A stretch of 41,421 nt of DNA from Paracoccaceae bacterium. Lineage in GTDB: Bacteria; Pseudomonadota; Alphaproteobacteria; Rhodobacterales; Rhodobacteraceae. Below are positions 2,940 through 22,022 of the stretch, in pieces. Under the pieces are notes generated by a model, which had not been told where the DNA came from, did not search any database, and worked only from the letters and a program-made list of their open reading frames with translations. Position 1 is the first letter of the stretch, and each line of letters begins with the position of its first letter. The DNA lies in NCBI GenBank assembly GCA_009920775.1, contig RFZI01000006.1:1-41421 (forward strand), written 5' to 3'. A program made the translations under genes and the position numbers.

Positions 2940-3794
2940 ATGAAGCTGCAAAACCCCGCAACCCCTGCCCCTCACGACGCCGAGGCGCGCCGCGCGATCC
3001 GGCCGACGATCTGCTATCCGATCGACTCCCTGCCGATGCCCGACGTTGCGGCGATGCAGGCGGGCCGCAAGGGGGCGGAGAAGATCGGCGAGGTTCTGGT
3101 GCCGCCGCGCGATGCGCGGTGTATCGAGGCTCCGGCGGGCAGTTTCTTTCGCATCACCTGCACCGAAGGGGCGCAGGTGGGCGATCTCAATCTCTGGAAC
3201 GCCGCCGACCTGAAGGAACACTTCTTCTCGGGCAAGACCCGCGCCTTGCACGGCACGCACCTCTCGACCGGCGACAGGCTCTGGTCGCGCTTGCCCTTCA
3301 TGCGCCCAATGGCGACGATCATTGCCGATACGCTCGACTGGTATGGCTTTGACGCTTTCGGCGGCTCGGTGCATGACGTGATCGGCACGCGCTGCGATCC
3401 CTATACGGGGCGGCTCTTGAACGGGACGGACTATCACTATTGCTGCCATTCCAACCTAACGCGGGCCTTGGCCGATTTCGCTGGGCTGACGCTCACTGAT
3501 GCCGAGCCTTTGGTGCATGACGTCCTCAACGTCTTCATGTGCACAGGCTTTACCGCTGACACGCATCAGTATTTCATGAAGGCAAGCCCGGTGCGGCCGG
3601 GCGATTATCTCGAGTTCATGGCCGAGATTGATCTGGTCGTCGGCCTCTCCGCCTGCCCCGGCGGCGATTGCGGGGACGAGCATACGTCTGACAAGGCCTC
3701 CTGCCATCCCCTGTTGATCGAGGTGTTCCAGAACCCCGCCTTTGCCCATGAGGTGCCGCCGGTCAATGCATATGACCGCAGCCACGGGCGCTAG
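2940..3794 (+). CDS. DUF1989 / urea carboxylase-associated family protein
   Basis: This is a 284-residue protein of the DUF1989 family. Recognisable segments are APAGSFFRITC near residue 66, a GDLNLWN segment, FDAFGGSVHDVIGTRCDP, YHYCCHSNLTRAL and a C-terminal CPGGDCG. Several conserved Cys and His residues hint at a metal or thiol site, but no reaction is established for most members; some are linked to urea or amine carboxylation. The ATG at 2940 is chosen because upstream in-frame codons lie antisense to lepA, the protein matches the family from here, and AAAGG precedes it. It converges with argE (CTAG stop overlap) and sits beside the DoeA-like gene, so it probably helps process a nitrogen compound of that pathway. 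Confidence 0.8.
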   Translation: MKLQNPATPAPHDAEARRAIRPTICYPIDSLPMPDVAAMQAGRKGAEKIGEVLVPPRDARCIEAPAGSFFRITCTEGAQVGDLNLWNAADLKEHFFSGKTRALHGTHLSTGDRLWSRLPFMRPMATIIADTLDWYGFDAFGGSVHDVIGTRCDPYTGRLLNGTDYHYCCHSNLTRALADFAGLTLTDAEPLVHDVLNVFMCTGFTADTHQYFMKASPVRPGDYLEFMAEIDLVVGLSACPGGDCGDEHTSDKASCHPLLIEVFQNPAFAHEVPPVNAYDRSHGR

Positions 3795-4957
3795 CGGCTG
3801 AGGCGGTCGCCCAGTTTCACCAGCATATCGCAGCAAAGCGCAAGCTGGTCGCGGGAAAGGAATTCGTCGGGTTTGTGCGCCTGACGGATCGAACCGGGGC
3901 CACAGACGACAACGTGGCTTCCGAGCGCCTGAAAGAGGCCCGCCTCGGTGCCGAAAGGCACGGTTTCGGCGCTGTTGGCGCCGGTGAGTTCGGCCACAAG
4001 CTCGCGGGCGGCGTTGTGTTCCATCGGCTCAAGGCCCGCGACCTCGCCAATCGCCGTTGTGCTGATCGAGGCAGAAGGATGGACGCGGCGCATGGCGGGG
4101 AGGAGTTCCTCTTCGCAATAGCGGCCGATCTCGGACTTGACGAAATCGGCATCGGAAACCTGCACGGGGCGCATTTCCCAATCGACCTCGGCCTTACCGA
4201 CGATGACGTTATGGGCGACCCCGCCCGAGATGCGGCCGATGTTGATCGTCGTATGGGGCGGGTCAAAGCGGCTGGCCGCAGGCGTGCGGGCGACGAGGCC
4301 CTCGCGCAGCGACATGAGGCGGCTCACATAGCGCACGGCATATTCGGCGGCATTCACACCCAGATCGGGAGCCGAGCCGTGGCCTTCGAGGCCGGTGAAG
4401 CGGGTGGTGTATTCGTAGCAGCCCTTGTGGCCTTCGATGATCTTCATCTCGGTGGGCTCACCGATGATGGCGATATCGGGGACGATGCCGCGGGCCTCGA
4501 GGTCTTTCACGAGGTGGCTCGCGCCGAGGCAGCCGGTTTCCTCGTCATGGGTGAAGGCGAAATGCAGCGGACGCTTGAGGGCCGCGGGATCGACGCTTTC
4601 GGCCAAGGCCATGGCGGCGGCGATAAAGCCCTTCATGTCGCAAGTGCCGCGCCCGTAGAGGAGGCCCTCGGCCTCGGACAGCGCGAAGGGATCGGTCGTC
4701 CAGTCCTGATCCGTGACGGGGACCACATCAGTGTGGCCTGAGAGGAGGACACCGCCCTTCACATCCGGCCCGAGGGTCGCGAAGACATTGGCCTTCTCGC
4801 CCGTCTCGTCGCGGGTGATGATGACGCGGGCGCCGAGGGCGGCGAGGCGCTCGGCGAGGTAGTCGATCATCGCGAGGTTGCTGTCGGTCGAGATTGTTGG
4901 AAAAGCGATGAGATCGCGGAGGATCTCGACCGAGCGTTCTGTCAGGGCGGCGCTCAT
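3791..4957 (-). CDS. argE: ArgE-type M20 deacetylase (acetylornithine deacetylase family)
   Basis: This 388-residue M20 metallopeptidase has the canonical zinc motifs: SGHTDVVPV (His), GRGTCDMKG (bridging Asp), THDEETGCLGA (catalytic Glu-Glu) and a C-terminal AHKPDEF His. Family members remove acetyl groups from N-acetylornithine or related N-acetyl diamino acids. The ATG at 4957 lies 2 bp after the TGA of the DoeA-like gene, so the pair is translationally coupled. That coupling suggests the physiological substrate may be N-acetyl-2,4-diaminobutyrate, the product of ectoine hydrolysis, rather than acetylornithine; this is inference. Canonical ectoine clusters use a different fold (DoeB/EutE, AstE-like) for this step. 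A plain ArgE role in arginine synthesis is the alternative. Confidence 0.85.
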   Translation of the reverse strand: MSAALTERSVEILRDLIAFPTISTDSNLAMIDYLAERLAALGARVIITRDETGEKANVFATLGPDVKGGVLLSGHTDVVPVTDQDWTTDPFALSEAEGLLYGRGTCDMKGFIAAAMALAESVDPAALKRPLHFAFTHDEETGCLGASHLVKDLEARGIVPDIAIIGEPTEMKIIEGHKGCYEYTTRFTGLEGHGSAPDLGVNAAEYAVRYVSRLMSLREGLVARTPAASRFDPPHTTINIGRISGGVAHNVIVGKAEVDWEMRPVQVSDADFVKSEIGRYCEEELLPAMRRVHPSASISTTAIGEVAGLEPMEHNAARELVAELTGANSAETVPFGTEAGLFQALGSHVVVCGPGSIRQAHKPDEFLSRDQLALCCDMLVKLGDRLSR

Positions 4958-4959
4958 CG

Positions 4960-6144
4960 TCAATCCTTCACGAAGAGCTTGCGCGGGCGGTGGCAGAAGG
5001 GCTCGGCCGCGCCGCTTTCGCGGATCAGGATCGGCTCGGTGATCTCGAGGCCCCATGTCGGCTGCCAGATGCCGGGCATGAAGTGGAAGGCCATGCCCGG
5101 TTCGAGCACGGTCTCGTCCTCGGAGCGGAGCGAGATGGTGCGCTCGCCCCAGTCGGGCGGGTAGCTCAGGCCGATGGGATAGCCGCAGCGGGCGCCGCGG
5201 GTGATGCCCGCCTTTTCCAGAACACCGCCCAGCGCATTGGCGATATCGCAGGCGCGGTTGCCGGCGCGGGCGGCGTCAAGCCCTGCCTCGAGGCCTTCGA
5301 CCAGCGCCGCTTCGGCGCGGATCATGTCGTCAGGGGGCGTGCCGAGAAAAACGGTGCGGCAGAAGGGCGTGTGATAGCGGCGGTAGACGCCTGCCAGCTC
5401 GAAAAAGGTGCATTCGCCGCGCTTCAGCGTCTCGCCGTCCCAAGTCAGGTGGGGGGCCGAGGCATCGGCGCCGGAGGGGCACATCGGCACAATCGCGGGA
5501 TAATCGCCCCAGTGGCCTTCGGCGCCGGTCAGGGCATCGGCATAGATCGAGGCGACAAGTTCGTTCTTCTTCAGGCCCGGCTCGGCGCGGTCGATCGCCC
5601 CGTCGATCATCTTTTCCGCGATCCGCGCGGCGCGGCGCATGAAGGCGATCTCCTCGTCAGATTTCACCGCCCGCTGCCAGTTCACAAGGGCGGTGGCGTC
5701 GATGATATCGGCACTGGGGAGTTCGGCCAGAAGGGTCGTATAAGCCTTGGCCGAGAAATAGTAGTTCTCCATCTCGACACCGATGCGGGCCTTTTCAAAG
5801 CCGAGTTCCTTCAGCAGAGCGGCAAGGTGCTGCATCGGGTGGCGGACGGTCGATTGCACATATTGGTCGCCATAGGGGCGCAGGCTGGCCTCGGAAAGCC
5901 ATGCCGTGCGGCGTGCGCCGTTGGCGTCCATGTTGCGGCCCCACCAGACGGGCTCGCCCTCCATCCCGAGGATCACGCCTTGGTGGACGTAGAAAGACCA
6001 GCCGTCATAGCCGGTGAGCCAAGCCATGTTGGAAGGGTCTTCGACGAACATCACATCGACCCCCGCCTTGGCCATCGCCGCGCGGGTTTTGGCGATGCGG
6101 CGGTCGTATTCGCGGGTCGTGAACGCGGGATTGGCGGCAGGCAT
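4960..6144 (-). CDS. doeA: DoeA/EutD-like ectoine hydrolase (M24 fold, creatinase-like)
   Basis: This 394-residue pita-bread-fold protein strongly resembles DoeA/EutD: LTGYDGWSFYVHQ near 43-55, DANGARRT, IGVEMENYYFSA near 121-131, LVNWQRAVKS and GADASAPHLTW ending near 235. At the positions where metal-dependent M24 enzymes have two Asp ligands it has Glu249 and Pro260, so it should be metal-free, as in ectoine hydrolase and creatinase. His232 lies where creatinase-type enzymes have their catalytic His (inference). The expected reaction is opening of the ectoine ring to N-acetyl-2,4-diaminobutyrate in the cytoplasm. The ATG at 6144 has a GGGGGAAA Shine-Dalgarno. It is first of an operon with argE and divergent from the transaminase. 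Substrate specificity within the family could differ. Confidence 0.82.
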   Translation of the reverse strand: MPAANPAFTTREYDRRIAKTRAAMAKAGVDVMFVEDPSNMAWLTGYDGWSFYVHQGVILGMEGEPVWWGRNMDANGARRTAWLSEASLRPYGDQYVQSTVRHPMQHLAALLKELGFEKARIGVEMENYYFSAKAYTTLLAELPSADIIDATALVNWQRAVKSDEEIAFMRRAARIAEKMIDGAIDRAEPGLKKNELVASIYADALTGAEGHWGDYPAIVPMCPSGADASAPHLTWDGETLKRGECTFFELAGVYRRYHTPFCRTVFLGTPPDDMIRAEAALVEGLEAGLDAARAGNRACDIANALGGVLEKAGITRGARCGYPIGLSYPPDWGERTISLRSEDETVLEPGMAFHFMPGIWQPTWGLEITEPILIRESGAAEPFCHRPRKLFVKD

Positions 6145-6205
6145 GTCGGTTTCCCCCTTTGGCGCGCCGCTCCATCTGGTTGACCTCGGGGCAGCTTTGC
6201 TTTGT

Positions 6206-6214
6206 GTTTGGGCC
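6206..6214 (+). promoter_or_regulatory. GTTTGGGCC word in the doeA/transaminase divergent promoter region
   Basis: GTTTGGGCC lies in the 154-bp region between the divergent doeA and transaminase starts, inside a wider imperfect palindrome running from GTGTT (6204 onward) to AACAC near 6223. The same word occurs twice before the DUF1989 gene, and its first eight bases recur inverted before the AsnC and ammonia-lyase genes. Proposed as an operator half-site for the cluster's AsnC-type regulator; this is inference from recurrence only. Confidence 0.35.
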
Positions 6215-6298
6215 AACTTAACACCGATCCGCGGTTTGTCTGCAAACGGGCGACACTTGGTGGCTCGCAAGCGTCGGGAAATTCAGAAGGAAGAAGAG

Positions 6299-7669
6299 AT
6301 GCTCCACAACGACCAACTGGAAAAATGGGATCGGGAGAATTTCTTTCACCCTTCGACGCATCTGGCCGAGTTCGCCCGCGGGAACCTGCCGCAGCGGGTG
6401 ATCCGCACCGCTTCGGGCGTATTCATCGAGGATCGGGACGGGCGGAAACTGCTCGACGCTTTTGCGGGGCTTTATTGCGTGAACGTGGGCTATGGCCGCC
6501 AAGAGATCGCCGAGGCGATTGCCGAGCAGGCCCGCGAGCTGGCCTATTATCACGCCTATGCGGGGCATGGGTCGGAGGCCTCGATCACGCTGGCCAAAAT
6601 GGTTCTCGACCGTGCGCCGGATCATATGTCGAAGGTCTATTTCGGGCTGGGCGGGTCGGACGCGAACGAGACCAACGTCAAATTGATCTGGTATTACAAC
6701 AACATCCTCGGACGGCCCGAGAAGAAGAAGATCATCTCGCGCTGGCGCGGCTATCATGGGTCGGGGCTTGTGACCGGATCGCTCACCGGCCTTGAGCTTT
6801 TCCACAAGAAATTCGATCTGCCGCTGAGCCAAGTCGTCCATACCGAGGCCGCCTATTACCTGCGCCGCGCCGATCGCGGGATGAGCGAAGAGGCCTATGT
6901 GGCGCATCTCGTGGCCGAGCTCGAGGCGCTCATCGCCCGCGAAGGGGCCGATACCATCGCCGCTTTCATCGGCGAGCCGGTGATGGGCACGGGCGGGATC
7001 GTGCCGCCGCCTGCGGGCTATTGGCCGGCGATCCAGAAGGTTCTCGACAAGCATGACATCCTGCTTGTGGCCGACGAGGTGGTGACGGGCTTTGGTCGGA
7101 CGGGCTCGATGTTTGGCTCCGATCACTGCGGGATGCGCCCCGATATCATCACCATCGCCAAGGGCCTCACCTCGGCCTATGCGCCGCTGTCGGGGTCGAT
7201 CATTTCCGACAAGGTCTGGAAGGTTCTGGAGCAGGGCACCGACGAGAACGGCCCCATCGGCCACGGCTGGACCTATTCGGCGCATCCCATCGGGGCGGCG
7301 GCGGGGGTTGCAAACCTGAGGCTCATCGACGATCTGAACCTGCTCGCCAATGTGCGCGAGACCGGCGCCTATTTCCGCGCGGCGATGGCCGATGCCTTGG
7401 CGGATCATCCGCAGGTGGGCGAGGTGCGCGGCGAGGGGATGCTTTGCGCGGTCGAGTTCATGGAGGACAAGGCGGCGGGCCGCTTCTATGAGCCTGCGGG
7501 CAAGGTCGGGCCCAAACTTGCAGCGCATATGCTGGAAAGCGGCGTCATCGCGCGGGCCATGCCGCAGGGCGATATCCTCGGCTTTGCCCCGCCCTTCTGC
7601 CTGACGCGGGCGGAAGCCGATCAGGTGGTCGGTGCGACAGCCGCAGCGGTGAAGGCTGTTTTGGGCTAG
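6299..7669 (+). CDS. Class III PLP aminotransferase, DoeD-like
   Basis: This 456-residue class III (omega) transaminase starts at the ATG at 6299 after AAGGAAG. Visible features are FFHPSTHLAEFARG at 15-28, YCVNVGYGR, the cofactor segment GLGGSDANET (116-124), DEVVTGFGRTG, and Lys288 in TIAKGLTSAY as the Schiff-base lysine. It resembles the DoeD/Atf transaminases of ectoine clusters, which convert 2,4-diaminobutyrate to aspartate semialdehyde. It diverges from the DoeA-like gene, with promoters in the shared region 6145-6298, and its stop overlaps that of the AsnC regulator at a CTAG. Close relatives also use other omega-amino donors such as taurine, beta-alanine and putrescine, so the substrate rests on context. 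Confidence 0.85.
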   Translation: MLHNDQLEKWDRENFFHPSTHLAEFARGNLPQRVIRTASGVFIEDRDGRKLLDAFAGLYCVNVGYGRQEIAEAIAEQARELAYYHAYAGHGSEASITLAKMVLDRAPDHMSKVYFGLGGSDANETNVKLIWYYNNILGRPEKKKIISRWRGYHGSGLVTGSLTGLELFHKKFDLPLSQVVHTEAAYYLRRADRGMSEEAYVAHLVAELEALIAREGADTIAAFIGEPVMGTGGIVPPPAGYWPAIQKVLDKHDILLVADEVVTGFGRTGSMFGSDHCGMRPDIITIAKGLTSAYAPLSGSIISDKVWKVLEQGTDENGPIGHGWTYSAHPIGAAAGVANLRLIDDLNLLANVRETGAYFRAAMADALADHPQVGEVRGEGMLCAVEFMEDKAAGRFYEPAGKVGPKLAAHMLESGVIARAMPQGDILGFAPPFCLTRAEADQVVGATAAAVKAVLG

Positions 7670-8148
7670 ATCGGCAGGCTCAGGCCGACTTTCGTCCGCT
7701 CCATCGAGACCGATGTCCGAAATCTTCGGACATTGGAATCCTCGAAGAACAGCCGGTGGGTCAAAGCCTCGAAATCCTGCATATCCTTGGCGGTGCAGAT
7801 CAGGATGAAGTCGGCCTCGCCCGTCACATAATAGCATTGCTGCACCTGCGGCTCGCCGCGCACGCGCTTGCGGAAGGCGTCGAGCTGGACCAGCGACTCG
7901 CGCTCAAGCTCGACCAGCACAACAAAGGTCATCTTGGTATCAAAGCCGGCCGGATTGAGCACGGCGATCTCTTTTTCGATCAACTGCGCGTCGCGCAGCT
8001 TCTTGACCCGCCGCTGGACGGAAGGGACCGAGAGGGCGCAGAGCTCGGCCAGTTGTTCAAGGCCAATGCGGCAATCTTCCTGCAGCTGGCGCAGGATAAT
8101 CATATCGGCCTTGTCGAGAGGGGGCATTTCGAGTTTTCCGATCAACAT
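7666..8148 (-). CDS. Lrp/AsnC-family transcriptional regulator
   Basis: This protein is up to 160 residues, with an N-terminal winged helix-turn-helix (from LDKADMIILRQLQEDCRIG to VQRRVKKL) and a C-terminal RAM ligand-binding domain including YYVTGEADFILI. Two starts are possible: 8148, or 8127 giving MPPLDKAD. The latter has GGAAAA upstream and fits family length better (153 residues). AsnC-type regulators usually sense an amino acid and control adjacent genes; ectoine clusters commonly carry one (DoeX/AsnC), so a diamino acid inducer is plausible. It is divergent from the ammonia-lyase gene and convergent with the transaminase, a typical autoregulatory location. Confidence 0.88.
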   Translation of the reverse strand: MLIGKLEMPPLDKADMIILRQLQEDCRIGLEQLAELCALSVPSVQRRVKKLRDAQLIEKEIAVLNPAGFDTKMTFVVLVELERESLVQLDAFRKRVRGEPQVQQCYYVTGEADFILICTAKDMQDFEALTHRLFFEDSNVRRFRTSVSMERTKVGLSLPI

Positions 8149-8180
8149 TTATGGGTTTCGCGCAAGATATTCTCGTAAAT

Positions 8181-8189
8181 AGCCCAAAC
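8181..8189 (-). promoter_or_regulatory. AGCCCAAAC word between AsnC regulator and ammonia-lyase genes
   Basis: AGCCCAAAC (minus strand GTTTGGGCT) matches eight of nine bases of the GTTTGGGCC word at 2875-2883, 2931-2939 (inverted) and 6206-6214. It lies inside a TTCTC...GAGAA inverted pair (about 8170-8196) in the divergent region 8128-8290. Candidate AsnC operator, inferred from recurrence. Confidence 0.35.
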
Positions 8190-8290
8190 TAAGAGAAAAC
8201 AAAGCCAAATTTCCGTGCCAAGCTGATGAGAACCGCTCGCGGGCCTGCCAGCCCATTCGGATGAATTGGAGTGGAGACTGGGGAACTGAA

Positions 8291-9346
8291 TTGAAGCTCG
8301 TCACCAACCCTTTCCGCGGCGGATCCGAGCCGCTCCATCCCGAGGCCCCCTACCCTTCGGTCGCGGCGCAGCGGGTGGCGGACCTTCTGGGCCAGTGCCC
8401 AGTGCATATGGAAACCCCGCTCTGCGCCGCGCCTGATCTGGCGGAGGCGGCGGGCGTGGCCGGTCTCTGGATCAAGGACGAGCGCGGACGGATGGGGCTT
8501 GGCAGCTTCAAGGCGCTGGGGGCGGCCTATGTGATCGCCCGCCATGCGGCCGATAAAGGGGCAAAGCCCGGACGCGCGACCCTTAAGGGCGAGACCTATG
8601 TAACCGCCTCGGCGGGCAATCACGGGATGTCTGTCGCGGCAGGGGCGCGGCTCTTCAGGGCGAAATCGGTGGTCTATATCGCCGAAACGGTGCCCGAGGT
8701 TTTCGCCGTGCGGCTCGCCGCCAAGGGCGCCGAGGTGCGGCGCGAGGGGGTGGATTATGCGGCCTCGATGGTTGCCGCGCAGAAGGCGGCCAAGGACGAG
8801 GGGCTATCGCTGCTCTCCGACAGTTCGTGGGCAGGCTATACCGAGCTGCCGCACATCCTGATGGAAGGCTATCTGCAGATGGCCGCCGAGGCGGTGAAGC
8901 GGTTTTCGGGGGTCCCGACGCATATTTTTCTGCAAGCAGGCGTTGGCGGGCTGGCCGGTGCCGTGGCCGCCTATGCCCGCACGGTCTGGGGCAAGGCGCC
9001 CAAGATCATCGTCGTCGAACCAGAGGCGGCGGCGGGGTTGCAGGCCTCGATCGAGGCGGGGCATTCGGTGGTGGCCGCCGGCCCTGACAGCATCATGGGG
9101 CGGCTCGATTGCAAGGAGCCGTCACTCATCGCCCTGAACGGATTGGCGCGGGACGCCGACCTGTTCCTCACGCTCTCGGACGCGCAGGTGGAGGCGCAGC
9201 TCGGGGCGCTGAGGGACGCGGGCTTTGCCACGACCGCTTCGGGCGGTGCGGGGGTAGCCGCGGTGCTTGACCCGCAGGCGCGGGCGGCCGTGGGCCTCGG
9301 GCCCGAAGCGCGGATTCTCACCTTCCTGTCGGAGATGCCGGAATGA
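8291..9346 (+). CDS. Diaminopropionate ammonia-lyase-like PLP enzyme (fold type II)
   Basis: This is a fold-type-II PLP enzyme of about 351 residues. The lysine anchor is GSFKALGAAY (Lys74); TASAGNHGMSVA binds substrate carboxylate, LQAGVGGLAG binds phosphate, and SDSSWAGYTELP is typical of the YgeX/diaminopropionate ammonia-lyase branch. It should eliminate ammonia or water from a 2,3-diamino or beta-hydroxy amino acid. In eut-type ectoine clusters EutB, a related PLP lyase, is thought to act on hydroxyectoine-derived hydroxy-diaminobutyrate, and this gene may fill that slot (inference). The TTG at 8291 with upstream GGAG/GGGGA is preferred; an in-frame ATG at 8261 lacks a ribosome-binding site. 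Its stop overlaps the next start (ATGA, 9343-9346), showing translational coupling. Confidence 0.8.
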   Translation: MKLVTNPFRGGSEPLHPEAPYPSVAAQRVADLLGQCPVHMETPLCAAPDLAEAAGVAGLWIKDERGRMGLGSFKALGAAYVIARHAADKGAKPGRATLKGETYVTASAGNHGMSVAAGARLFRAKSVVYIAETVPEVFAVRLAAKGAEVRREGVDYAASMVAAQKAAKDEGLSLLSDSSWAGYTELPHILMEGYLQMAAEAVKRFSGVPTHIFLQAGVGGLAGAVAAYARTVWGKAPKIIVVEPEAAAGLQASIEAGHSVVAAGPDSIMGRLDCKEPSLIALNGLARDADLFLTLSDAQVEAQLGALRDAGFATTASGGAGVAAVLDPQARAAVGLGPEARILTFLSEMPE

Positions 9347-10497
9347 CGCCTGCACGCGGGTTCGAGCGCAGCGAATACGAAGGGCGCGTGGCGCGGGCGC
9401 AGGCGCGGATGGCGCAAGCCGGGATCGAGGCGCTTCTCCTCACCACCGAGCCGGAAGTGCGCTATTTCACTGGCTACCTCACGCGGTTCTGGGAAAGCCC
9501 GACGCGGCCGTGGTTTCTTCTTGTCCCTGCCTCGGGCGCGCCGATTGCGGTGATCCCTTCCATCGGGGCCGAGCTGATGGTGCAGACGTGGGTGGAGGAT
9601 ATCCGCACCTGGCGGGCGCCGGATCTTGAGGACGATGGCGTGAGCCTTCTGGCCGAAACGATCCGCGAGATCGTGGGCGAGGGCGGGATCGTCGGCCTGC
9701 CGGACGGGCACGAGACGCATCTGCGAATGCCGCTGGCCGATTATACACGGCTGGGCAAAGCGATAGGCCAAAGGCGGCTCGGGTCGGATCAGGGCATCCT
9801 GCGGGCGCTTCGCATGGTGAAATCGCCTGCCGAGGTTGAAAAAATCCGCTATGCCTGCGGGATCGGCGGGCGGGCCTATGCGCGAGTGCCGGAGATCGCC
9901 CGCGAGGGCGCGCCCCTCGACGAGATTTTCCGCCGCTTCCAGATGCTGTGCCTCGAGGAAGGGGCCGACTGGGTGCCTTACGTCGCGGGTGGCGCGGATC
10001 AGGGCGGCTATGGCGACGTGATCAGCCCCGCACGGCCTGTGCCCCTCAGACGGGGCGATGTCTTGATGCTCGATACCGGCCTCGTCTGGGATGGGTATTT
10101 CTGTGATTTTGACCGGAACTGGTCGATCGGCCCCGCGAGCGATGCGGTCAAGGCGGCCCATGCGGCGCTGATCGCCTCCGCCGAGGCGGGTTTCGCGGCG
10201 GCCAAGCCGGGGGCGCTGGCTTCGGACATTTACGAGGCGATGAACGCGCCCTTGATGAAGGCGGGCGGCGGCACGGATGCGGGGCGGATCGGGCATGGCT
10301 TGGGGATGTCGCTGACCGAGTGGCCCTCGCTCATCCCGACCGACCATACGCCGATCGAGGCGGGGATGGTCTTGACGCTGGAGCCGGGGATCTCCGTGGG
10401 CAGCCGTATCATCGTCCACGAAGAGAATATCCTTGTGACCGAGACAGGGGCCGAGTGGCTCACCACGCCTGCCCCCGCCGCGATACCGGAGATATAA
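9343..10497 (+). CDS. M24-family Xaa-Pro peptidase-like hydrolase (metal-type)
   Basis: This 384-residue protein has an N-terminal creatinase-type domain and a C-terminal M24 catalytic domain. The metal ligands are intact: LDTGLVWDGYFCDFDR supplies the two Asp at the usual 11-residue spacing, GHGLG the His, TLEPG a Glu and HEENI the final Glu. It should therefore be a Mn/Co-dependent aminopeptidase-P-like amidase, unlike the metal-free DoeA paralog 4 kb away. The start at 9343 overlaps the ammonia-lyase stop by 4 bp, and the EutA-like gene starts 3 bp after its stop, so the three form one operon. It may open a second cyclic or peptidic amide substrate; the exact substrate is unknown. Confidence 0.82.
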   Translation: MTPARGFERSEYEGRVARAQARMAQAGIEALLLTTEPEVRYFTGYLTRFWESPTRPWFLLVPASGAPIAVIPSIGAELMVQTWVEDIRTWRAPDLEDDGVSLLAETIREIVGEGGIVGLPDGHETHLRMPLADYTRLGKAIGQRRLGSDQGILRALRMVKSPAEVEKIRYACGIGGRAYARVPEIAREGAPLDEIFRRFQMLCLEEGADWVPYVAGGADQGGYGDVISPARPVPLRRGDVLMLDTGLVWDGYFCDFDRNWSIGPASDAVKAAHAALIASAEAGFAAAKPGALASDIYEAMNAPLMKAGGGTDAGRIGHGLGMSLTEWPSLIPTDHTPIEAGMVLTLEPGISVGSRIIVHEENILVTETGAEWLTTPAPAAIPEI

Positions 10498-10500
10498 GCG

Positions 10501-11211
10501 ATGCGCCTGCCCTATGAGGTTGATGCCGACGATCCAATGTCCCCACCGATGGGGATTATCGTCCTGCAAACCGACGAAACCATCGAGCCGGAATTTGGCC
10601 GCTATTTCGCGGATCACCCGAGCCCGCTCTACGTCAGCCGCGTGCCAAGCGGGCTTGAGGTCACAACCCATACGCTCTCGGACATGGCCGATGAGCTGAG
10701 CCGCGCGGCGAGCCTTTTGCCGGGGCCGCGGGACTATGCGGTTGTGGGCTATGGCTGCACCTCCGGCTCGGCGGTGATCGGGCCTGCCGAGGTCGAGCGG
10801 CTCGTCAAGGCGGGCTGCAGGGCCAAGGCCGTGACCAACCCGCTGACCGCCGCGGTCGCCGCCTGCCGCGACAAGGGCATCTCGCGGCTGGCGCTTCTGT
10901 CGCCCTATATCGAGGAGGTGAATATCCCGCTGATCGAGGCTTTTGCCGCCGAGGGGATCGAGTTCGCCGCTGTGGCAACGTTCGACGAGGCGGTGGAAGA
11001 GCGGGTGGTGCGGATCTCGCACAAATCGGTGGTCGAGGCGGCCTGCAAGGTAGGCGCGGACAAGAGAATCGAGGGGATATTCATGAGTTGCACGAACCTC
11101 AGAACATACGACGCAATAAGCGAAGTCGCCTCAAGATTGCAGCGCCCTGCCCTCTCGAGCAACCAAGCCATGGCATGGCACATGCGGCAACTGTCGGGAG
11201 TCGGGCGCTAA
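10501..11211 (+). CDS. EutA-like Asp/Glu racemase / maleate isomerase superfamily protein
   Basis: This 236-residue protein resembles the EutA / maleate cis-trans isomerase / arylmalonate decarboxylase group. It shows the paired-cysteine layout of the superfamily: first Cys in VVGYGCTSGSAVIG (about residue 84) and second in IFMSCTNLRT (about 197), with LLSPYIEEVN between. Members act on small dicarboxylates or amino acids by Cys-based proton transfer. EutA genes are part of ectoine/hydroxyectoine utilisation clusters, where their exact role is not settled. The gene follows the M24 gene by 3 bp, with GGAGAT upstream of its ATG, and ends the catabolic operon 151 bp before the ABC importer. Confidence 0.75.
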   Translation: MRLPYEVDADDPMSPPMGIIVLQTDETIEPEFGRYFADHPSPLYVSRVPSGLEVTTHTLSDMADELSRAASLLPGPRDYAVVGYGCTSGSAVIGPAEVERLVKAGCRAKAVTNPLTAAVAACRDKGISRLALLSPYIEEVNIPLIEAFAAEGIEFAAVATFDEAVEERVVRISHKSVVEAACKVGADKRIEGIFMSCTNLRTYDAISEVASRLQRPALSSNQAMAWHMRQLSGVGR

Positions 11212-11225
11212 CAAGAACATCCGGC

Positions 11226-11249
11226 TTCCCTTGCGTCAAATAAAGGGAA
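11226..11249. other. Inverted repeat between EutA-like gene and ABC importer
   Basis: TTCCCTT (11226-11232) and AAGGGAA (11243-11249) form a perfect 7-bp inverted repeat with a 10-bp loop, 15 bp after the EutA-like stop. There is no T-run after the plus-strand arm, so it is either a weak terminator or an operator for the importer. Confidence 0.35.
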
Positions 11250-11362
11250 AACGACTGGAAAAACCGGGTTGCACCTAAGGCACTGAGCACTTTTAATAGT
11301 TTCGATACGCGCAAAGGGCTCTGCCTGCCTGACCAGCGCCAAGACAAAAAAGGGGGAGGACT

Positions 11363-12631
11363 GTGGCCAAAAGTTCCGGCGGAAACGCCTTCGTGGAATT
11401 CCAGCACGTCCAGAAAAGCTACGACGGCGAAACGCTTGTCGTGAAAGACCTCAACCTCTCGATGCCGAAGGGCGAGTTTCTGACGATGCTCGGGCCGTCA
11501 GGTTCGGGCAAGACGACTTGCCTGATGATGCTGGCCGGTTTCGAGACCGCCACGCATGGCGAGATCATGCTTGACGGCCAGCCGATCAACAACATCCCGC
11601 CGCACAAGCGCGGGATCGGCATGGTGTTTCAGAACTACGCACTTTTCCCGCATATGACTGTGGCCGAGAACCTCGCATTCCCGCTCGAAGTGCGGAAGAT
11701 GGGCAAATCGGAGCGCGAAGAGAAGGTCAAGCGGGCGCTCGACATGGTGCAGATGGGCGCCTTTGGCGGCCGCCGTCCGGCGCAGCTTTCGGGCGGCCAA
11801 CAGCAGCGGATCGCCTTGGCCCGTGCGCTCGTGTTCCAGCCCGAACTGGTGCTGATGGACGAGCCCTTGGGCGCGCTCGACAAGCAGCTGCGCGAGCATA
11901 TGCAGTTTGAAATCACCCGTCTGGCCCATGACCTCGGTATCACGGTGGTCTATGTGACCCACGACCAGACCGAGGCGCTGACCATGTCGGATCGCGTGGC
12001 CGTGTTCAACGACGGGCGCATCCAGCAGCTGGCCCCGCCCGACGAGCTTTACGAAAAGCCGCAAAACAGCTTCGTCGCCCAGTTCATCGGTGAAAACAAC
12101 ACCTTGGAAGGTGTGATCAAGTCGATCGACGGCGACAAATGCGTGGTCAAGCTCGACAGCGGCGACGAGATTGACGCGCGGCCTGTCAACGTGACCAAGG
12201 CTGGCGAGCGCACCAAGGTGTCGATCCGGCCCGAGCGGGTCGAGTTCAACAAATCCCGCCTGCAGAAGGGCGCCCATACGCTCAAGGCCGAGGTGGCCGA
12301 GTTCATCTATATGGGCGATATTTTCCGGTTCCGCCTCAAGGTGGCCGGGAACAACGATTTCATCGTCAAGACACGCAACGCTCCTGATGCGGTCCGGCTC
12401 ACACCGGGCTCGCAGATCGAGATCGGCTGGCTTGCCGAGGATTGCCGCGCGCTGGACGCCCCTGCTTGCGACGAGCGCGCTCGTCATCACTTCGGGCTCT
12501 GCCTTTGCCGAGAGCATGACGCTCGTCAGCTGGGGCGGTGCCTATCAGGCCAGCCAGACCAAGGCCTATTCGGATCCGTACACTGCCGCGAACCCCGGCA
12601 TCACCATCATCTGGGACGAAAGCTCGGCTGA
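11363..12631 (+). CDS. ABC importer ATPase (PotA/UgpC type) with aberrant C-terminal tail
   Basis: The ATP-binding subunit of a polyamine/opine-type importer. Walker [10 protein letters not shown], signature LSGGQQQR, Walker B LVLMDEP and H-loop YVTHDQ are followed by a TOBE-type C-terminal domain. The start is a GTG at 11363 after AGGGGGAGGA. Family-like sequence ends at EDCRALDA, about residue 366 (12460). The last ~56 residues, rich in Arg and His, are the out-of-frame reading of the binding-protein gene's signal peptide and N-terminus. The native stop and intergenic spacer are absent, as if deleted at about 12450-12465. The catalytic domain should be unaffected. Context suggests import of the substrate degraded by the upstream module. 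Confidence 0.85.
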   Translation: MAKSSGGNAFVEFQHVQKSYDGETLVVKDLNLSMPKGEFLTMLGPSGSGKTTCLMMLAGFETATHGEIMLDGQPINNIPPHKRGIGMVFQNYALFPHMTVAENLAFPLEVRKMGKSEREEKVKRALDMVQMGAFGGRRPAQLSGGQQQRIALARALVFQPELVLMDEPLGALDKQLREHMQFEITRLAHDLGITVVYVTHDQTEALTMSDRVAVFNDGRIQQLAPPDELYEKPQNSFVAQFIGENNTLEGVIKSIDGDKCVVKLDSGDEIDARPVNVTKAGERTKVSIRPERVEFNKSRLQKGAHTLKAEVAEFIYMGDIFRFRLKVAGNNDFIVKTRNAPDAVRLTPGSQIEIGWLAEDCRALDAPACDERARHHFGLCLCREHDARQLGRCLSGQPDQGLFGSVHCREPRHHHHLGRKLG

Positions 12632-13538
12632 AGCCGTGGCCAAGCTCCGCGCGATGAACGAAGCCGGCAACATCACCTGGGATCTCGTGGACGTGGAAGG
12701 CGCTGACTCGATCCGCCTCTGCGACGAGGGCCTGGCGATGGAGATCGACCACGACTCGATGCTCGCCGCCGCTCCGGATGGCACCTCGGCTTCCGACGAC
12801 TTCGGCGACTCGATCGTTTCGGACTGCTTCATTCCGCAGATCGTGTTCTCGACCACCGTCGGCTATCGCCTCGACATGGTTGGCGACACCCCGCCGACCT
12901 CGATCTGTTCGCTGTTCGACCTCGACGCCTATCCGGGCAAACGCGCGCTCAACAAGCGCCCGCTCGCCAACGTGGAATGGGCGCTTCTCTGCGACGGCGT
13001 GCCGAAGGACGAGATCTATGACGTTCTGGCCACCTCGGAAGGCCAAGACCGTGCTCTCGCCAAGCTCGACACCATCAAAGACAGCGTGATCTGGTGGTCG
13101 GCTGCTGCCGAAACCCCGCAGCTTCTGGCTGACGGCGAGATCGTCATGGGCTCGACCTACAACGGCCGTCTGTTCTCGGCCATCGCCGAGCAGAACCAGC
13201 CGATCGGTATGCTCTGGGATGCGCAGATGCTCGACTTCGACGGCTGGATCGTTCCTGCCGGTCTGCCGGAAGATCGTCTGGCCCGCGTGATGGACTTCCT
13301 GAACTTTGCCACCGACACCCAGCGTCTGGCGGATCAGGCGGCCTACATCTCCTACGGCCCGGCCCGTGCCTCTTCGGCTCCGCTCGTCGGCAACCACGCC
13401 GAGCTGGGTATTCCGATGGCGCCGCATATGCCGACCGACCCGGCCAATGCGCAGAACGTCTTCGTGACCCAGTACGAGTTCTGGGCTGACTATCGCGACG
13501 ACATCGACGCGAAGTTCCAGGCTTGGCTCGCCAAGTAA
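12387..13538 (+). CDS. ABC importer periplasmic binding protein (PotD/opine type), start disturbed
   Basis: An extracellular solute-binding protein whose mature part begins ESMTLVSWGGAYQASQTKAY, typical of the spermidine/putrescine/opine binding family. The signal core LLATSALVITSGSAFA is present, but its expected short basic N-region, ribosome-binding site and spacer are missing because the gene is joined directly to the 3' end of the ATPase frame. The first in-frame ATG is 12387, inside the ATPase gene and without a Shine-Dalgarno. A TTG at 12432 would also give a plausible signal peptide (MPRIAARWTPLL...). Either could in principle be used, since the Arg-rich leader precedes a good hydrophobic core. 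Expression therefore depends on whether the junction is real. Confidence 0.78.
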   Translation: MRSGSHRARRSRSAGLPRIAARWTPLLATSALVITSGSAFAESMTLVSWGGAYQASQTKAYSDPYTAANPGITIIWDESSAEAVAKLRAMNEAGNITWDLVDVEGADSIRLCDEGLAMEIDHDSMLAAAPDGTSASDDFGDSIVSDCFIPQIVFSTTVGYRLDMVGDTPPTSICSLFDLDAYPGKRALNKRPLANVEWALLCDGVPKDEIYDVLATSEGQDRALAKLDTIKDSVIWWSAAAETPQLLADGEIVMGSTYNGRLFSAIAEQNQPIGMLWDAQMLDFDGWIVPAGLPEDRLARVMDFLNFATDTQRLADQAAYISYGPARASSAPLVGNHAELGIPMAPHMPTDPANAQNVFVTQYEFWADYRDDIDAKFQAWLAK

Positions 13539-13554
13539 TCGACTGACAATCAAG

Positions 13555-13578
13555 GGGAAGGGCCGGCTGGCCCTTCCC
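13555..13578 (+). terminator. Intercistronic hairpin after the binding-protein gene
   Basis: GGGAAGGGCC / GGCCCTTCCC forms a perfect 10-bp stem with a GGCT loop, 16 bp after the binding-protein stop and 32 bp before the first permease. There is no T-run, so it more likely slows 3' decay and keeps binding-protein mRNA in excess over permease mRNA than terminates fully. Confidence 0.7.
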
Positions 13579-13610
13579 TACCCTCTAGAAAGACCACGCG
13601 GGGAGAGACA

Positions 13611-15182
13611 ATGAGCGAGACGACCCAATCCGGGCCCATGCTTTCGGCCGACGGCGTTCCGCTGAAAACCAGCCTCGCCCGCGCCCTGCGCCGCCAGAAG
13701 ATCCGCGCGCTTTTGCTGATCTCGCCGCTTCTGGCCTTTGTTCTGATTACCTTCATCATCCCGATCGCCTCGATGCTGTTTAGGTCGGTCGGGGTGCTCT
13801 ATCTCGATATGTATCGGGCGGTTGAAGCGAAGGCGCATACGCGCCTCGGCTCCCGCCTTAATTATGAACAGTCCGGCATCTCGTCGCTCTTCCGCACCTC
13901 GGGCCGCAAACTTGAGGACGTGGGCGAGGATTTCGAGGATTTCTTCAAAGATGCCGACAGCGGGATGGTCAAAGGGCCGTTCTGGCATGGGCTGATGCAG
14001 GGCGAAGGGGGCGAGGATCTTCTCAATGATCGCCTTGGCCTTCTGACCGACCTCACCTCGCTCGAAGCCTCTAGCGATCTCGGCTTTACCCTGTCGGGCG
14101 AAACCGCAGCGCTTCTGCCTTGGGCCGCCCGTGCCTATGCCGACTGGGCGCTTTTCACCGCCATCGTCGACGAAGACGATGTGTCGAAGAAGAAGCCTTG
14201 GGCCGGTGTCTATGCTGCGCTGGCGCTTGATCTGGCCGATCCGGCAACGCAAAGCGCCGTGGCCGCCTATAGCGGCAGCGGTGCGGCAGAGCTTCAGGCC
14301 GCCGTGGCCAATATCGCCGATATGCCGGCAACCGAGTTCCGCGCCTATTTCGAAGATATCGACGACAAGTGGGTGTCTGGCGAGACCTGGGCGCTGCTCA
14401 AGGTGTTCGGCTCGCAATACACCTCGGGCTATTTCCTGAATGCGGTCGATATGAAGTTGACGCCCGATGGCATCGAGCAGCGGCCCGACAACGAGCGGCT
14501 CTATCTCAAGCTCTTCAACCGCACGCTCATCATGTCGATGATCATCACCGTCAGCTGCATCCTCTTGGGCTATCCGGTGGCCTGGCTTCTGGCCAACCTG
14601 CCGATGAGGTCGGCCAACGTGTTGATGATCCTCGTCCTCCTACCCTTCTGGACCTCACTACTGGTGCGAACCTCGGCGTGGAAGGTGCTGCTGCAACAGC
14701 AGGGGGTGATCAACGATATCTTCGTCTGGCTTGGCTTTGTGGCCGATGACGCCCGCTTGGTAATGATGAACAATTCCACCGGCACGATCATTGCGATGAC
14801 GCATATTCTTTTGCCCTTCATGATCCTGCCGCTCTACTCGGTGATGAAGACCATCCCGCCCAGCTATCTGCGGGCCGCCAAGAGCCTTGGCGCGACCAAC
14901 TGGACCGCCTTCTGGCGGGTCTATTTCCCGCAATCGGTTCCGGGGATTGGCGCGGGCTCGATCCTCGTGTTCATCCTTGCCATCGGCTATTACATCACGC
15001 CCGAGATCGTCGGCGGCACCGATGGTGTCTTTATCTCGAACCGGATCGCCTATCATATCTCGTCCTCTCTCAACTGGGGCCTCGCGGCCGCTCTGGGGAC
15101 GATCCTTCTCGCAGTCGTCATGCTGCTTTACTGGCTCTACGACCGGATCGTGGGCATCGACAACGTGAAGCTGGGGGGCTGA
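13611..15182 (+). CDS. ABC importer permease (PotB type) with large periplasmic insertion
   Basis: This 523-residue inner-membrane permease is much longer than the ~280-300 of standard PotB proteins. After a first membrane segment (about residues 30-58, ALLLISPLLAFVLITFIIPI) comes a hydrophilic stretch of about 230 residues, then the remaining helices from about residue 300 and the conserved coupling loop (RAAKSLGATNWTAFWRVYFP, the EAA motif). The extra domain lies between helices 1 and 2, probably in the periplasm, and may contact the binding protein. The ATG at 13611 follows GGGGAGAG. The second permease starts 4 bp after its stop. The reading frame is continuous, so the insertion is a family trait rather than a frameshift. 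Confidence 0.85.
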   Translation: MSETTQSGPMLSADGVPLKTSLARALRRQKIRALLLISPLLAFVLITFIIPIASMLFRSVGVLYLDMYRAVEAKAHTRLGSRLNYEQSGISSLFRTSGRKLEDVGEDFEDFFKDADSGMVKGPFWHGLMQGEGGEDLLNDRLGLLTDLTSLEASSDLGFTLSGETAALLPWAARAYADWALFTAIVDEDDVSKKKPWAGVYAALALDLADPATQSAVAAYSGSGAAELQAAVANIADMPATEFRAYFEDIDDKWVSGETWALLKVFGSQYTSGYFLNAVDMKLTPDGIEQRPDNERLYLKLFNRTLIMSMIITVSCILLGYPVAWLLANLPMRSANVLMILVLLPFWTSLLVRTSAWKVLLQQQGVINDIFVWLGFVADDARLVMMNNSTGTIIAMTHILLPFMILPLYSVMKTIPPSYLRAAKSLGATNWTAFWRVYFPQSVPGIGAGSILVFILAIGYYITPEIVGGTDGVFISNRIAYHISSSLNWGLAAALGTILLAVVMLLYWLYDRIVGIDNVKLGG

Positions 15183-15186
15183 GATC

Positions 15187-16401
15187 ATGGCAAGCACGAC
15201 GCAGGAATTCCGCCCGCCCTTCGCCACCTTCACCGCGCCTCTCTCGGCGCTTCTGGCCGCCCTCTTCGGCTTTGTCGTCGGCAATGCCTATGGCGAGCCG
15301 TGGATCGGGTTTGTCATGGGCGGCGTTCTCGGCGCGATCATCGCCTTTGCCATCGACAAGCTGCCCTTTGGCCGGACCCAGAGCCGCCTTGGCACCATCG
15401 TCATCCTCGGCCTTGCCGGACTGATGACCGGTAGCGCCGGCGGTGTTGTTTCGGGCGTTCTGATCGGCGCGGTGCTCAGCTGGTTCATCTACTGGCTCGA
15501 CCGCGGCGAATATCGCAAGAACGTGCCGCTCTATTATACTGCGGGCCAGACGCTTTGGCACAACGCCTTCATGCTGATCTGCGGGCTGATCTTCTTCTTC
15601 CTGATCGCGCCGCTCCTGCCGGTCATGTGGCTGAGCTTCAATGCGCAGGATTTCTTCACCTTCACGCCCGAGATGCTGAATTTCGAGGCCGCGGGCTATT
15701 CGCTCAAGCATTACCGCAATTTCCTCACCACCGAGGAATGGATGATCCCGCTGAAGAACTCGCTCATCATCGCCCCGATTGCGACGGTGATCTCGGTGAG
15801 CCTCGGAACGCTCGCGGCGATCGGTCTGAGCCAGAGCCATGTGCCCGCACGGCGGGCGATCATGGCGATCCTGATCTCGCCGATGATCGTGCCGCTCATC
15901 ATCTCGGCCACGGGGATGTTCTTCTTCTATGCGCCCTTGGGCAACTGGATCGAGCTGAACCTCGGGCTGAGCCAGACCTTCGTGGGCTACGTCAAGGTGA
16001 TCCTCGCGCACGCGGTTCTGGGCGTGCCCTTCGTCATCATCACGGTGACGGCGACGCTTGTGGGTTTTGACAATTCGCTGACCCGCGCTGCCGCCAACAT
16101 GGGCGCCAATCCGGTGACGACCTTCTTCCGCGTGCAGATGCCGCTGATCCTTCCGGGTGTGATCTCGGGTGGCCTCTTCGCCTTCATCACCTCGTTCGAC
16201 GAGGTGGTCGTGGTGCTCTTCGTCGGCTCGGCGCGGCAGCAGACCCTGCCGTGGCAGATGTTCACGGGCCTGCGCGAGCAGATCTCGCCCACGATCCTTG
16301 CTGCGGCAACGATCCTTGTGGTGATCTCGATCATGCTTCTGACCACGGTCGAGCTTCTGCGCCGCCGGTCCGAGCGGCTCAGGGGCATGTCGCCGGGCTG
16401 A
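15187..16401 (+). CDS. ABC importer permease (PotC type) with extra N-terminal helices
   Basis: This 404-residue permease also exceeds the usual ~270. About 110 N-terminal residues hold three or four additional hydrophobic segments (for example ALLAALFGFVVGNAY and GGVVSGVLIGAVLSWFIYWL). The standard PotC-like six-helix core follows from about residue 130, with the EAA loop (RAAANMGANPVTTFFRVQMP) near residue 300. It pairs with the preceding permease to form the channel. The start is 4 bp after that gene's stop with a GGGGGG ribosome-binding site. It closes the importer operon and is followed by a strong terminator. Confidence 0.85.
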   Translation: MASTTQEFRPPFATFTAPLSALLAALFGFVVGNAYGEPWIGFVMGGVLGAIIAFAIDKLPFGRTQSRLGTIVILGLAGLMTGSAGGVVSGVLIGAVLSWFIYWLDRGEYRKNVPLYYTAGQTLWHNAFMLICGLIFFFLIAPLLPVMWLSFNAQDFFTFTPEMLNFEAAGYSLKHYRNFLTTEEWMIPLKNSLIIAPIATVISVSLGTLAAIGLSQSHVPARRAIMAILISPMIVPLIISATGMFFFYAPLGNWIELNLGLSQTFVGYVKVILAHAVLGVPFVIITVTATLVGFDNSLTRAAANMGANPVTTFFRVQMPLILPGVISGGLFAFITSFDEVVVVLFVGSARQQTLPWQMFTGLREQISPTILAAATILVVISIMLLTTVELLRRRSERLRGMSPG

Positions 16402-16470: not shown

Positions 16471-16533
16471 CTATTCGGCCGCTTCGATATAGTCCTCGAG
16501 CGGCGGGCAGGTGCAGATCAGGTGACGGTCGCC
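16471..16533 (-). pseudogene. gcvP: Detached C-terminal 20 codons of gcvP
   Basis: Reading the minus strand from 16533 gives [20 protein letters not shown] and a TAG at 16471-16473, the conserved end of P-proteins, in a different frame from the main gcvP frame. It directly abuts the point where that frame loses similarity, which shows a deletion rather than divergence. Confidence 0.85.
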
Positions 16534-19103: not shown

Positions 19104-19132
19104 GGTGCCACTCCCAAAGGGATTACGGGGGT

Positions 19133-19155
19133 GCGGGGGCGATGACCGCCCCCGC
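19133..19155 (-). other. Intercistronic hairpin between gcvH and gcvP
   Basis: GCGGGGGCG (19133-19141) and CGCCCCCGC (19147-19155) form a perfect 9-bp GC stem with a 5-base loop, in the 75-bp gap between gcvH and gcvP. No T-run follows, so it likely protects or partly terminates the gcvTH message. Confidence 0.6.
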
Positions 19156-19178
19156 CGGAACGTTTCAACAGGCCAGGA

Positions 19179-19538: not shown

Positions 19539-19558
19539 TTATGTTTCTCCAGTTGGAC

Positions 19559-20689: not shown

Positions 20690-20759
20690 CATTCCTCCAG
20701 TATCACCGGTGGCGCATGACCGTCCGGCATCGTCGCAAGGCTCCGCCTCGCTGTTCGAT

Positions 20760-21998: not shown

Positions 21999-22022
21999 AT
22001 GGCCGCGCTATTGCGCGGCCAT
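21999..22022. terminator. Bidirectional hairpin between MBL gene and hemA
   Basis: ATGGCCGCGC (21999-22008), loop TATT and GCGCGGCCAT (22013-22022) form a perfect 10-bp stem. It overlaps the hemA stop codon (22008-22010) and lies 24 bp after the MBL stop, so it can end both convergent transcripts. There is no clear T-run on either side. Confidence 0.6.

Follow-up and report, generated by a model that had tools for sequence, protein, structure and literature searches.

A DoeA–ArgE gene cluster joined to a lyase–M24–EutA-like triad in a Paracoccaceae bacterium, a probable variant of ectoine catabolism

Gene Content of the Locus

The locus described here is a putative ectoine-catabolism cluster at positions 2940–16401 of the window, that is, of the whole stretch of 41,421 nucleotides analysed (contig RFZI01000006.1, assembly GCA_009920775.1, Paracoccaceae bacterium). 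It contains an M24 hydrolase of probable DoeA/EutD type, an ArgE-type M20 deacetylase, a class III aminotransferase, a triad composed of a pyridoxal phosphate (PLP) lyase, a second M24 hydrolase (M24b) and an EutA-like protein, and a Pot-type importer. The source genome, that of a marine bacterium, is a metagenome-assembled genome (MAG) of 2.44 Mb, 82.6% complete; the genome of the same genus used for comparison, G129, is 95% complete, and a record named Marivivens sp. (L126) carries a DoeA matching that of the window at 99%, which points to Marivivens as the genus. Eight open reading frames (ORFs) and a four-gene ABC importer were confirmed by the ORF map and family scans. All genes named in an earlier note on this DNA, made from the sequence alone, were present as open ORFs of the expected families. 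The features are given below with their family scores and cut-offs.

2940–3794, + strand: DUF1989 protein, convergent to the M20 gene (PF09347, 160.4 bits, over the cut-off of 27)
3791–4957, − strand: ArgE-type M20 deacetylase (TIGR01892, 365.1 bits, cut-off 297.7; NF005710, 454.6 bits, cut-off 412)
4960–6144, − strand: probable DoeA/EutD-type M24 ectoine hydrolase, ArgE-linked branch (TIGR02993, 588.6 bits, cut-off 613; tree)
6145–6298, no strand: intergenic region of 154 bp separating the divergently oriented DoeA and aminotransferase genes (coordinates)
6299–7669, + strand: class III aminotransferase of Atf/DoeD type, 2,4-diaminobutyrate transaminase (NF005684, 818.5 bits, cut-off 687)
7666–8148, − strand: AsnC/Lrp regulator, divergent from the lyase (PF01037, PF13404)
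8261–9346, + strand: PLP fold-II lyase, diaminopropionate ammonia-lyase relative, triad gene 1 (NF006058, 253.9 bits, cut-off 276)
9343–10497, + strand: metal-type M24 hydrolase (M24b), triad gene 2 (PF00557, 113.3 bits)
10501–11211, + strand: EutA-like protein, triad gene 3 (TIGR02990, 146.3 bits, cut-off 318)
11363–16401, + strand: Pot-type ABC importer, four genes (PotA, TIGR01187, 389.9 bits, cut-off 355.6)
11363–12631, + strand: PotA
12387–13538, + strand: importer binding protein
13611–15182, + strand: PotB
15187–16401, + strand: PotC

With respect to the NCBIfam cut-offs, the ArgE-type enzyme, the aminotransferase and PotA scored above, and DoeA, the lyase and the EutA-like protein below. 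G129 repeats the gene order of the locus, and G141, G024, G082 and several Ruegeria genomes do so with genes added or lost; a chance arrangement was dismissed because of this recurrence. The DoeA, M20 and aminotransferase genes on the one hand and the lyase, M24b and EutA-like genes on the other are two modules with separate distributions, joined in the window; the fusion of DoeA–ArgE with the triad was also found in G129, G141, G024, G082, Ruegeria arenilitoris, Ruegeria denitrificans and some Ruegeria atlantica. Inverted repeats of at least 8 bp were not detected in three promoter regions, including window positions 6100–6340. Ectoine synthase (PF06339) was found in two of eight genomes (G024 and G141) and not in the source genome or G129, and thus there was no sign of Marivivens making ectoine.

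DoeA and the Adjacent Deacetylase

The M24 protein encoded at 4960–6144 aligned with the DoeA structure 6twk at 516.8 bits over residues 7–393, a full-length homology in which the GYPIG, FHFMPG and AGVY blocks were near-identical. Its TIGR02993 score was narrowly below the equivalog cut-off; for comparison, DoeA of G141 reached 621.2 bits and the canonical control DoeA 783.4 bits. It retained 138 of the 148 columns that are invariant among EutE-side DoeA proteins. All 84 ArgE-linked DoeA fell within one branch of 104 rows, with zero EutE-linked rows (SH-aLRT 99, quick tree search), and six nearly fixed positions differed between the ArgE side and the EutE side. On these data the protein is probably an ectoine hydrolase of the DoeA/EutD type, within the branch of ArgE-linked proteins. 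Genome searches of the source genome and G129 gave no second DoeA-like gene above 70 bits.

Directly downstream of DoeA, an ArgE-type gene was present in 84 of 126 loci, EutE in 12 and neither in 30, while no locus had both. Eighty of these were named loci, the best 80 of 355 by DoeA similarity and hence enriched for window-like DoeA, and the 46 further loci were chosen to cover lower identities too; the ratio 84:12:30 should not be read as a natural frequency. With three pairs of identical DoeA, 123 were distinct (ArgE 82, EutE 12, none 29). Among the named loci, ArgE was directly downstream of DoeA in 68 of 80 and EutE in 0 of 80, the latter partly a selection effect. The arrangement, called rewired in the earlier note, is therefore recurrent and not a one-off. 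In the family sample (149 genomes), about half of the genomes with DoeA (50 of 96) resembled the ArgE type by score, the neighbours having been checked in part of them. The 96 correspond to 104 genomes minus those with weak or broken copies (G014, G017, G033, G042, G051, G090, G091 and G123). The 50 window-type DoeA are the 50 best-scoring ones, an approximate split; in the tree, the lower-scoring G004, G146, G066, G059, G057, G107 and G011 also fall on the ArgE branch. EnuR was present in 4 of 12 EutE-type loci and in 0 of 84 ArgE-type loci.

The M20 protein was above both family cut-offs and matched the ArgE acetylornithine deacetylase 7rsf at 201.7 bits. The His, Asp and Glu positions which we take to be the ligands were retained in the 85 aligned ArgE rows from these clusters, save one row gapped at two of them. 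None of 13 genomes, including the source genome and G129, reached the EutE cut-off (TIGR02994, 402.7 bits); the best match in the source genome was 66.9 bits, and two control clusters gave 583.4 and 538.5 bits. The juxtaposed eutD and eutE of canonical clusters were not found in the window, where the M20 gene follows DoeA. The expectation that an ArgE-type enzyme stands in the EutE place was thus borne out. A canonical doe/eut cluster elsewhere in the source genome, also raised in the earlier note, was not found: EutE, EutC and DoeA searches led to its rejection, though the MAG is incomplete.

Further DoeA genes were recorded. Locus L116 (G123) has a DoeA interrupted by several stops, approximately 10 kb from a triad. 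By tally, 28 Klebsiella plasmid records contain a DoeA-like gene; in those listed it shares about 60% identity with the window protein and is annotated as doeA. In Alisedimentitalea scapharcae and Rhodobacteraceae bacterium M382, the plasmid loci L206 and L207 carry a window-type DoeA that is annotated simply as an M24 metallopeptidase and has no adjacent deacetylase.

Ectoine-Related Genes at DoeA–ArgE Loci

In the canonical control cluster (L125, G013), Atf scored 832.5 bits, and EutA, EutB, EutC, EutD and EutE were all above cut-off; the aminotransferase of the window is of the same subfamily as this Atf and 79% identical to it. DoeA, ArgE, EutB, EutC, Ssd and Atf were found together in 15 of the 80 named loci, and an EhuB/EhuC-like importer in 13. 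The Ehu family scan covered two loci, L160 of Hoeflea marina (EhuB 192.8 bits, cut-off 190.9; EhuC 249.8, cut-off 196.95; EhuD 276, cut-off 205.2) and L204 of Mesorhizobium sp. (EhuB 209.5 bits, above cut-off). EutB and EutC are located between DoeA and the aminotransferase in G141, G024 and G082 (loci L057, L059 and L060). EutB of G141 was over the cut-off of NF005680 (427.1 vs. 413 bits) and under that of TIGR02991 (405.8 vs. 413.35 bits); its EutC was over that of NF006141 (447.7 vs. 408 bits) and under that of TIGR02992 (412 vs. 471.65 bits).

Since EutB, EutC, Ssd, Atf and Ehu-like importers lie beside DoeA–ArgE, the unit most likely serves ectoine catabolism and not a novel diamino acid pathway. 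The same neighbours, the 79% identity of Atf and the conserved alanine of the lyase (see below) disfavour substrates such as 2,3-diaminopropionate, which the earlier note had suggested. By sequence and context, DoeA followed by an ArgE-type M20 gene is a recurrent variant of ectoine catabolism, in which the M20 protein is proposed as the N-alpha-acetyl-2,4-diaminobutyrate deacetylase in place of EutE/DoeB.

No EutB or EutC match was present in the window map; EutB was not searched genome-wide. The best EutC match in the source genome was 173.9 bits (cut-off 471.65), and none was found in Marivivens genomes. The absence of EutC from this cluster consequently stands, but as a local state, as sister clusters have EutB and EutC by the lyase.

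Characterization and Distribution of the Triad

The lyase was below the diaminopropionate ammonia-lyase (DAL) cut-off of NF006058 and matched solved DAL chains at 124–129 bits. Lys84, the PLP lysine, and Ala118 were present in 53 of 53 distinct relatives of the triad type. Solved DAL chains have at the Ala118 position the Asp of the TDGNHG motif, to which we attribute, by assumption, a catalytic role; with Ala in its place the lyase presumably looks nearer to serine/threonine dehydratases. A few lyases outside the triad were also seen, one of them with Asp at this position. M24b retained the metal ligands Asp244, Asp255, His318, Glu347 and Glu360 in 52 of 52 distinct relatives, in agreement with its earlier designation as a second metal-type M24 hydrolase. 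Its best solved match was the prolidase 5cde (111.7 bits). A DddP-like function was ruled out (26.3 bits vs. a cut-off of 600). The EutA-like protein was below the TIGR02990 cut-off, the control EutA having 367.2 bits, and Cys86 and Cys197 were present in 48 of 48 distinct relatives. Its fold is that of arylmalonate decarboxylase, Asp/Glu racemase and maleate isomerase, the nearest solved chains being arylmalonate decarboxylases. The three residue counts refer to distinct triad-type sequences. Of 63 loci examined, 7, the window and G129 among them, have a divergent AsnC homologue adjacent to the lyase; AsnC/Lrp also adjoins the lyase in a few stand-alone triads.

In the family sample, 52 genomes had a lyase of at least 285 bits (22 weaker of 74 were dropped), and 40 loci were fetched wide for adjacency. 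M24b was directly downstream of the lyase in 39 of 40 and the EutA-like gene followed in 38 of 40 (tblastn), usually with nothing else conserved nearby. DoeA was present in 45 of the 52 lyase genomes vs. 51 of 97 others; the excess resides with the 50 best-scoring DoeA genomes (31/52 vs. 19/97) and not with the remaining DoeA. DoeA–ArgE itself occurs with or without the triad, often with a divergent Pot importer.

Of 289 genomes in a class-wide sample, 14 had the lyase (E up to 1e-55) and 29 had DoeA (E up to 1e-100); 12 of the 14 lyase genomes carried DoeA. Where the lyase was beside M24b, DoeA was present in 10 of 10 genomes vs. 19 of 279 others (Fisher p ~2e-11), the ten representing five families and six genera and not ten independent events; G055, with a lyase but no M24b, is outside this group. 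Outside the family of the source genome the values were 8 of 8 vs. 17 of 277. In G341 and G434, of another family, the lyase, M24b, EutA-like and DoeA genes are consecutive. EutE comes immediately afterwards in G341, and in G434 it lies roughly 1 kb past DoeA; EutB and EutC were not seen in the fetched stretches of either.

The lyase was found in 0 of 13 genomes with a canonical-scoring EutC vs. 14 of 18 with a lower-scoring EutC (Fisher p ~2e-5, family sample), the latter being the kind found beside ArgE-linked DoeA. This comparison covered 31 of the 33 genomes with a match and left aside G089 and G121 (<280 bits); canonical-scoring means at least 471 bits (12 above cut-off and G009 at 471.1), and G027, one of the 18, has an internal stop. 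Of the named ArgE loci, 61 exceed 17 kb; EutB with EutC was present in 17 of these and M24b with EutA in 14, never both. A one-for-one replacement of EutB by the lyase was nevertheless ruled out, as three sister clusters carry both. The earlier note put the lyase in the EutB place; the lyase and the EutA-like protein together may substitute for EutABC. From these distributions, the triad is probably tied to ectoine catabolism, as an alternative, EutABC-like module for hydroxyectoine.

Loci L055 and L058, with the triad and Pot but no DoeA, contain LLM-class flavin monooxygenase-like, alpha/beta hydrolase, aldehyde dehydrogenase and DUF1185-like genes, named mostly by eye, a possible additional oxidative branch. 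In L242 (G315) the triad and Pot are beside relatives of Ssd and Atf (68% and 72%); that stretch contains no DoeA, the DoeA of this genome being located a few kb further along the contig.

Pot Importer and DUF1989 Protein

PotA was above its family cut-off. The nearest solved relative of the binding protein was 8jv1 (229.3 bits), deposited as a spermidine/putrescine-binding protein, which suggests a polyamine ligand. The binding protein was present in 129 of 149 family genomes. With 107 binding-protein places used, Pot was less than 10 kb from 27 of the 50 best-scoring DoeA vs. 1 of 47 other DoeA places. Among the long ArgE loci (61 in all), Pot was present in 34, Ehu in 13, TRAP in 1 and none in 13, and the importers never co-occurred. 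In the binding-protein tree, linked copies are interspersed with unlinked ones and fall in two deep subfamilies; across 20 stretches around unlinked Pot copies no conserved enzyme partner was found, the importer itself aside. Pot is thus near-universal in the family and sometimes linked to DoeA, at most a candidate, and unproven, ectoine importer.

At approximately 12459 the window has 105 bp fewer than G129, exactly between the potA end and the start of the binding protein, so that the potA frame runs on beyond its normal stop and the binding-protein gene is without its normal start. This is either a strain-level loss or an assembly error.

The closest solved chain to the DUF1989 protein was 3di4_A (458.8 bits). 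A DUF1989 relative was present within 12 kb in 22 of 84 ArgE-type vs. 0 of 12 EutE-type DoeA loci. The family includes carboxyguanidine deiminase subunits (PMC11271267) and zinc-binding members (PMC12560246).

A third M24 gene, weakly PepQ-like, is just past PotC in L057, L058, L060, L150, L159, L168, L183 and L250, with an agmatinase-family gene close by in L058, L060 and several Ruegeria loci. Window positions 34613–41085 encode another Pot-like ABC importer that has a binding protein of its own (SBP_bac_8), together with an aldehyde dehydrogenase and a gene that by eye is of LysR type, a set possibly serving a polyamine or related amine.

Proposed Pathway and Alternative Explanations

The locus is interpreted as an ectoine-catabolism cluster that belongs to the recurrent ArgE variant and to which the triad is joined as an accessory block, a reading to which we assign a probability of roughly 0.68. 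From gene identities, kept residues, adjacency and co-occurrence, which are read directly from sequence and context, we infer every reaction given here and the Pot substrate. The DoeA-type M24 enzyme would open the ectoine ring to N-alpha-acetyl-2,4-diaminobutyrate, and the ArgE-type M20 enzyme would take off the acetyl group instead of EutE. The ArgE family deacetylates N-acetylornithine, the one-carbon-longer homologue of this intermediate. The Atf/DoeD transaminase would then yield aspartate semialdehyde, to be oxidised by a dehydrogenase encoded elsewhere.

For hydroxyectoine, DoeA and ArgE would give 3-hydroxy-diaminobutyrate. The EutA-like protein, with its two cysteines, would determine the stereochemistry of this product, water would be removed by the PLP lyase and, after imine hydrolysis, 4-amino-2-oxobutanoate would be formed, usable by Atf. 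The triad is placed after deacetylation because the PLP lyase needs a free amino group. A candidate task for M24b is the hydrolysis of the N-gamma-acetyl isomers that DoeA reportedly also makes. According to PMC5924519, DoeA yields alpha- and gamma-acetyl-diaminobutyrate (ADABA) at 2:1, and the gamma form is seemingly no substrate of DoeB. A more specific proposal is tentative and somewhat doubtful: the triad may be a second, EutABC-independent hydroxyectoine module of several alphaproteobacterial families, combining with an EutE- or ArgE-type core, in which the EutA-like protein resets stereochemistry, the lyase dehydrates and deaminates, and hydrolysis by M24b replaces the EutC reduction.

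Several observations weigh against the ectoine reading. The triad is mostly apart from DoeA, only 5 of 52 lyase loci of the family sample being less than 10 kb from it, and in 7 of the 52 lyase genomes no DoeA was counted, one (G123) having a broken copy. Of the 14 named loci with M24b and EutA, 5 (L161, L166, L168, L172 and L183) have no lyase. Ruegeria atlantica CECT 4292 carries the cluster but no lyase in it. Ruegeria fusion loci have no close Atf, EutB or EutC, and the clusters of G141, G024 and G082 hold EutB, EutC and the triad together. The co-occurrence counts ignore shared ancestry, and their thresholds were chosen after looking. The pairing of DoeA with a deacetylase is not universal either, since the 30 loci with neither gene are mostly on long contigs: 7 are shorter than 12 kb, and the others are longer with still no deacetylase directly beside DoeA. 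Their DoeA rows are scattered across both sides of the tree.

Part of these data would also agree with DoeA, ArgE and Atf degrading ectoine only, while the triad and Pot, co-located by chance rearrangement, act on substrates unconnected with ectoine, such as small peptides or D-amino acids (triad) and polyamines (Pot). The triad generally stands alone, M24b is nearest to prolidases, and the Pot binding protein is widespread in the family, mixed in its tree and related to a spermidine/putrescine-binding protein. Against this stand the class-wide tie between triad and DoeA (10/10 vs. 19/279), the adjacency of both in another family (G341 and G434), the lack of the lyase in all 13 genomes with a canonical-scoring EutC, the proximity of Pot to the best-scoring DoeA (27/50 vs. 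1/47) and the mutual exclusion of Pot, Ehu and TRAP (34, 13 and 1 of 61 loci), and we regard independent passengers as unlikely. That the cluster acts on another cyclic or acylated diamino acid, for instance an ectoine analogue with a five-membered ring that would yield 2,3-diaminopropionate as substrate of the YgeX-like lyase, is very improbable. The lyase is indeed closest to diaminopropionate ammonia-lyases, and ArgE-side DoeA deviate from EutE-side DoeA at the six nearly fixed positions; however, the lyase is in just 15 of 84 DoeA–ArgE loci and has no counterpart of the DAL Asp, Atf is of the canonical subfamily, and EutB, EutC, Ssd, Atf and Ehu-like genes are beside many DoeA–ArgE loci.

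Other Features of the Window

At 160–1008 an FRG-domain protein (PF08867, 73.5 bits) adjoins lepA; in G129 another FRG-like protein, by eye, is in the same place. Glycine cleavage P and T proteins are encoded at 16518–20692, directly downstream of the Pot importer, and G129 also has the P-protein beside PotC. The region 22008–33525 resembles a sulfur-oxidation (Sox) region: it encodes a SoxC-like molybdopterin oxidoreductase, a SoxB-like protein of the 5-nucleotidase type, c-type cytochromes and a sulfur transporter. Names beyond the Pfam matches were assigned by eye.

Comparison with Known Systems

A catalogue of ectoine consumers was built on juxtaposed eutD and eutE (PMC8739950), and a 2026 survey focused on genomes having EutD, EutE and EutB (PMC13188858). 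The ArgE-type lineage would be left out of both by design, owing to these selection rules. Among the papers listed from the open-licence PMC literature, none was found to describe the ArgE variant or the triad, as far as the text consulted extends. The EutABC steps of hydroxyectoine breakdown are stated as uncertain in PMC8739950. If the proposed role of the triad is true, an unrelated-looking enzyme set replacing EutABC in some genomes would provide an independent handle on these steps. Ectoine is a salt protectant. Ectoines are nitrogen-rich nutrients, and for this reason the range of organisms using them bears on marine carbon and nitrogen cycling.

The window M20 shares with ArgE acetylornithine deacetylase its family and the His, Asp and Glu positions, and differs by a context of ectoine catabolism instead of arginine synthesis. 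The lyase shares with YgeX diaminopropionate ammonia-lyase the PLP fold II and the PLP lysine, and differs by Ala for the TDGNHG Asp and by its sub-cut-off score. Putative eut clusters of Gram-positive bacteria and Thermodesulfobacteriota, called tentative in the survey (PMC13188858), have two eutD genes and no eutE. The Gram-positive clusters resemble the window in two EutD-like genes, lack of eutE and an amidohydrolase gene, abgB; both groups differ in phylum, gene order and regulators, as compared by their published descriptions.

Canonical eut/doe clusters, such as ehu-eut of Sinorhizobium, are alike in having DoeA/EutD by a deacetylase gene, Atf, AsnC, an EutA relative and an importer. 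In contrast, the window cluster is without Ssd and EutB, no EutC was found in its genome, and EnuR is lacking at all ArgE-type loci examined; it has an ArgE-type M20 gene instead of EutE, the lyase–M24b–EutA triad, a Pot importer and DUF1989. On this comparative evidence, the ArgE variant and the triad would constitute a new form of the known ectoine-degradation system.

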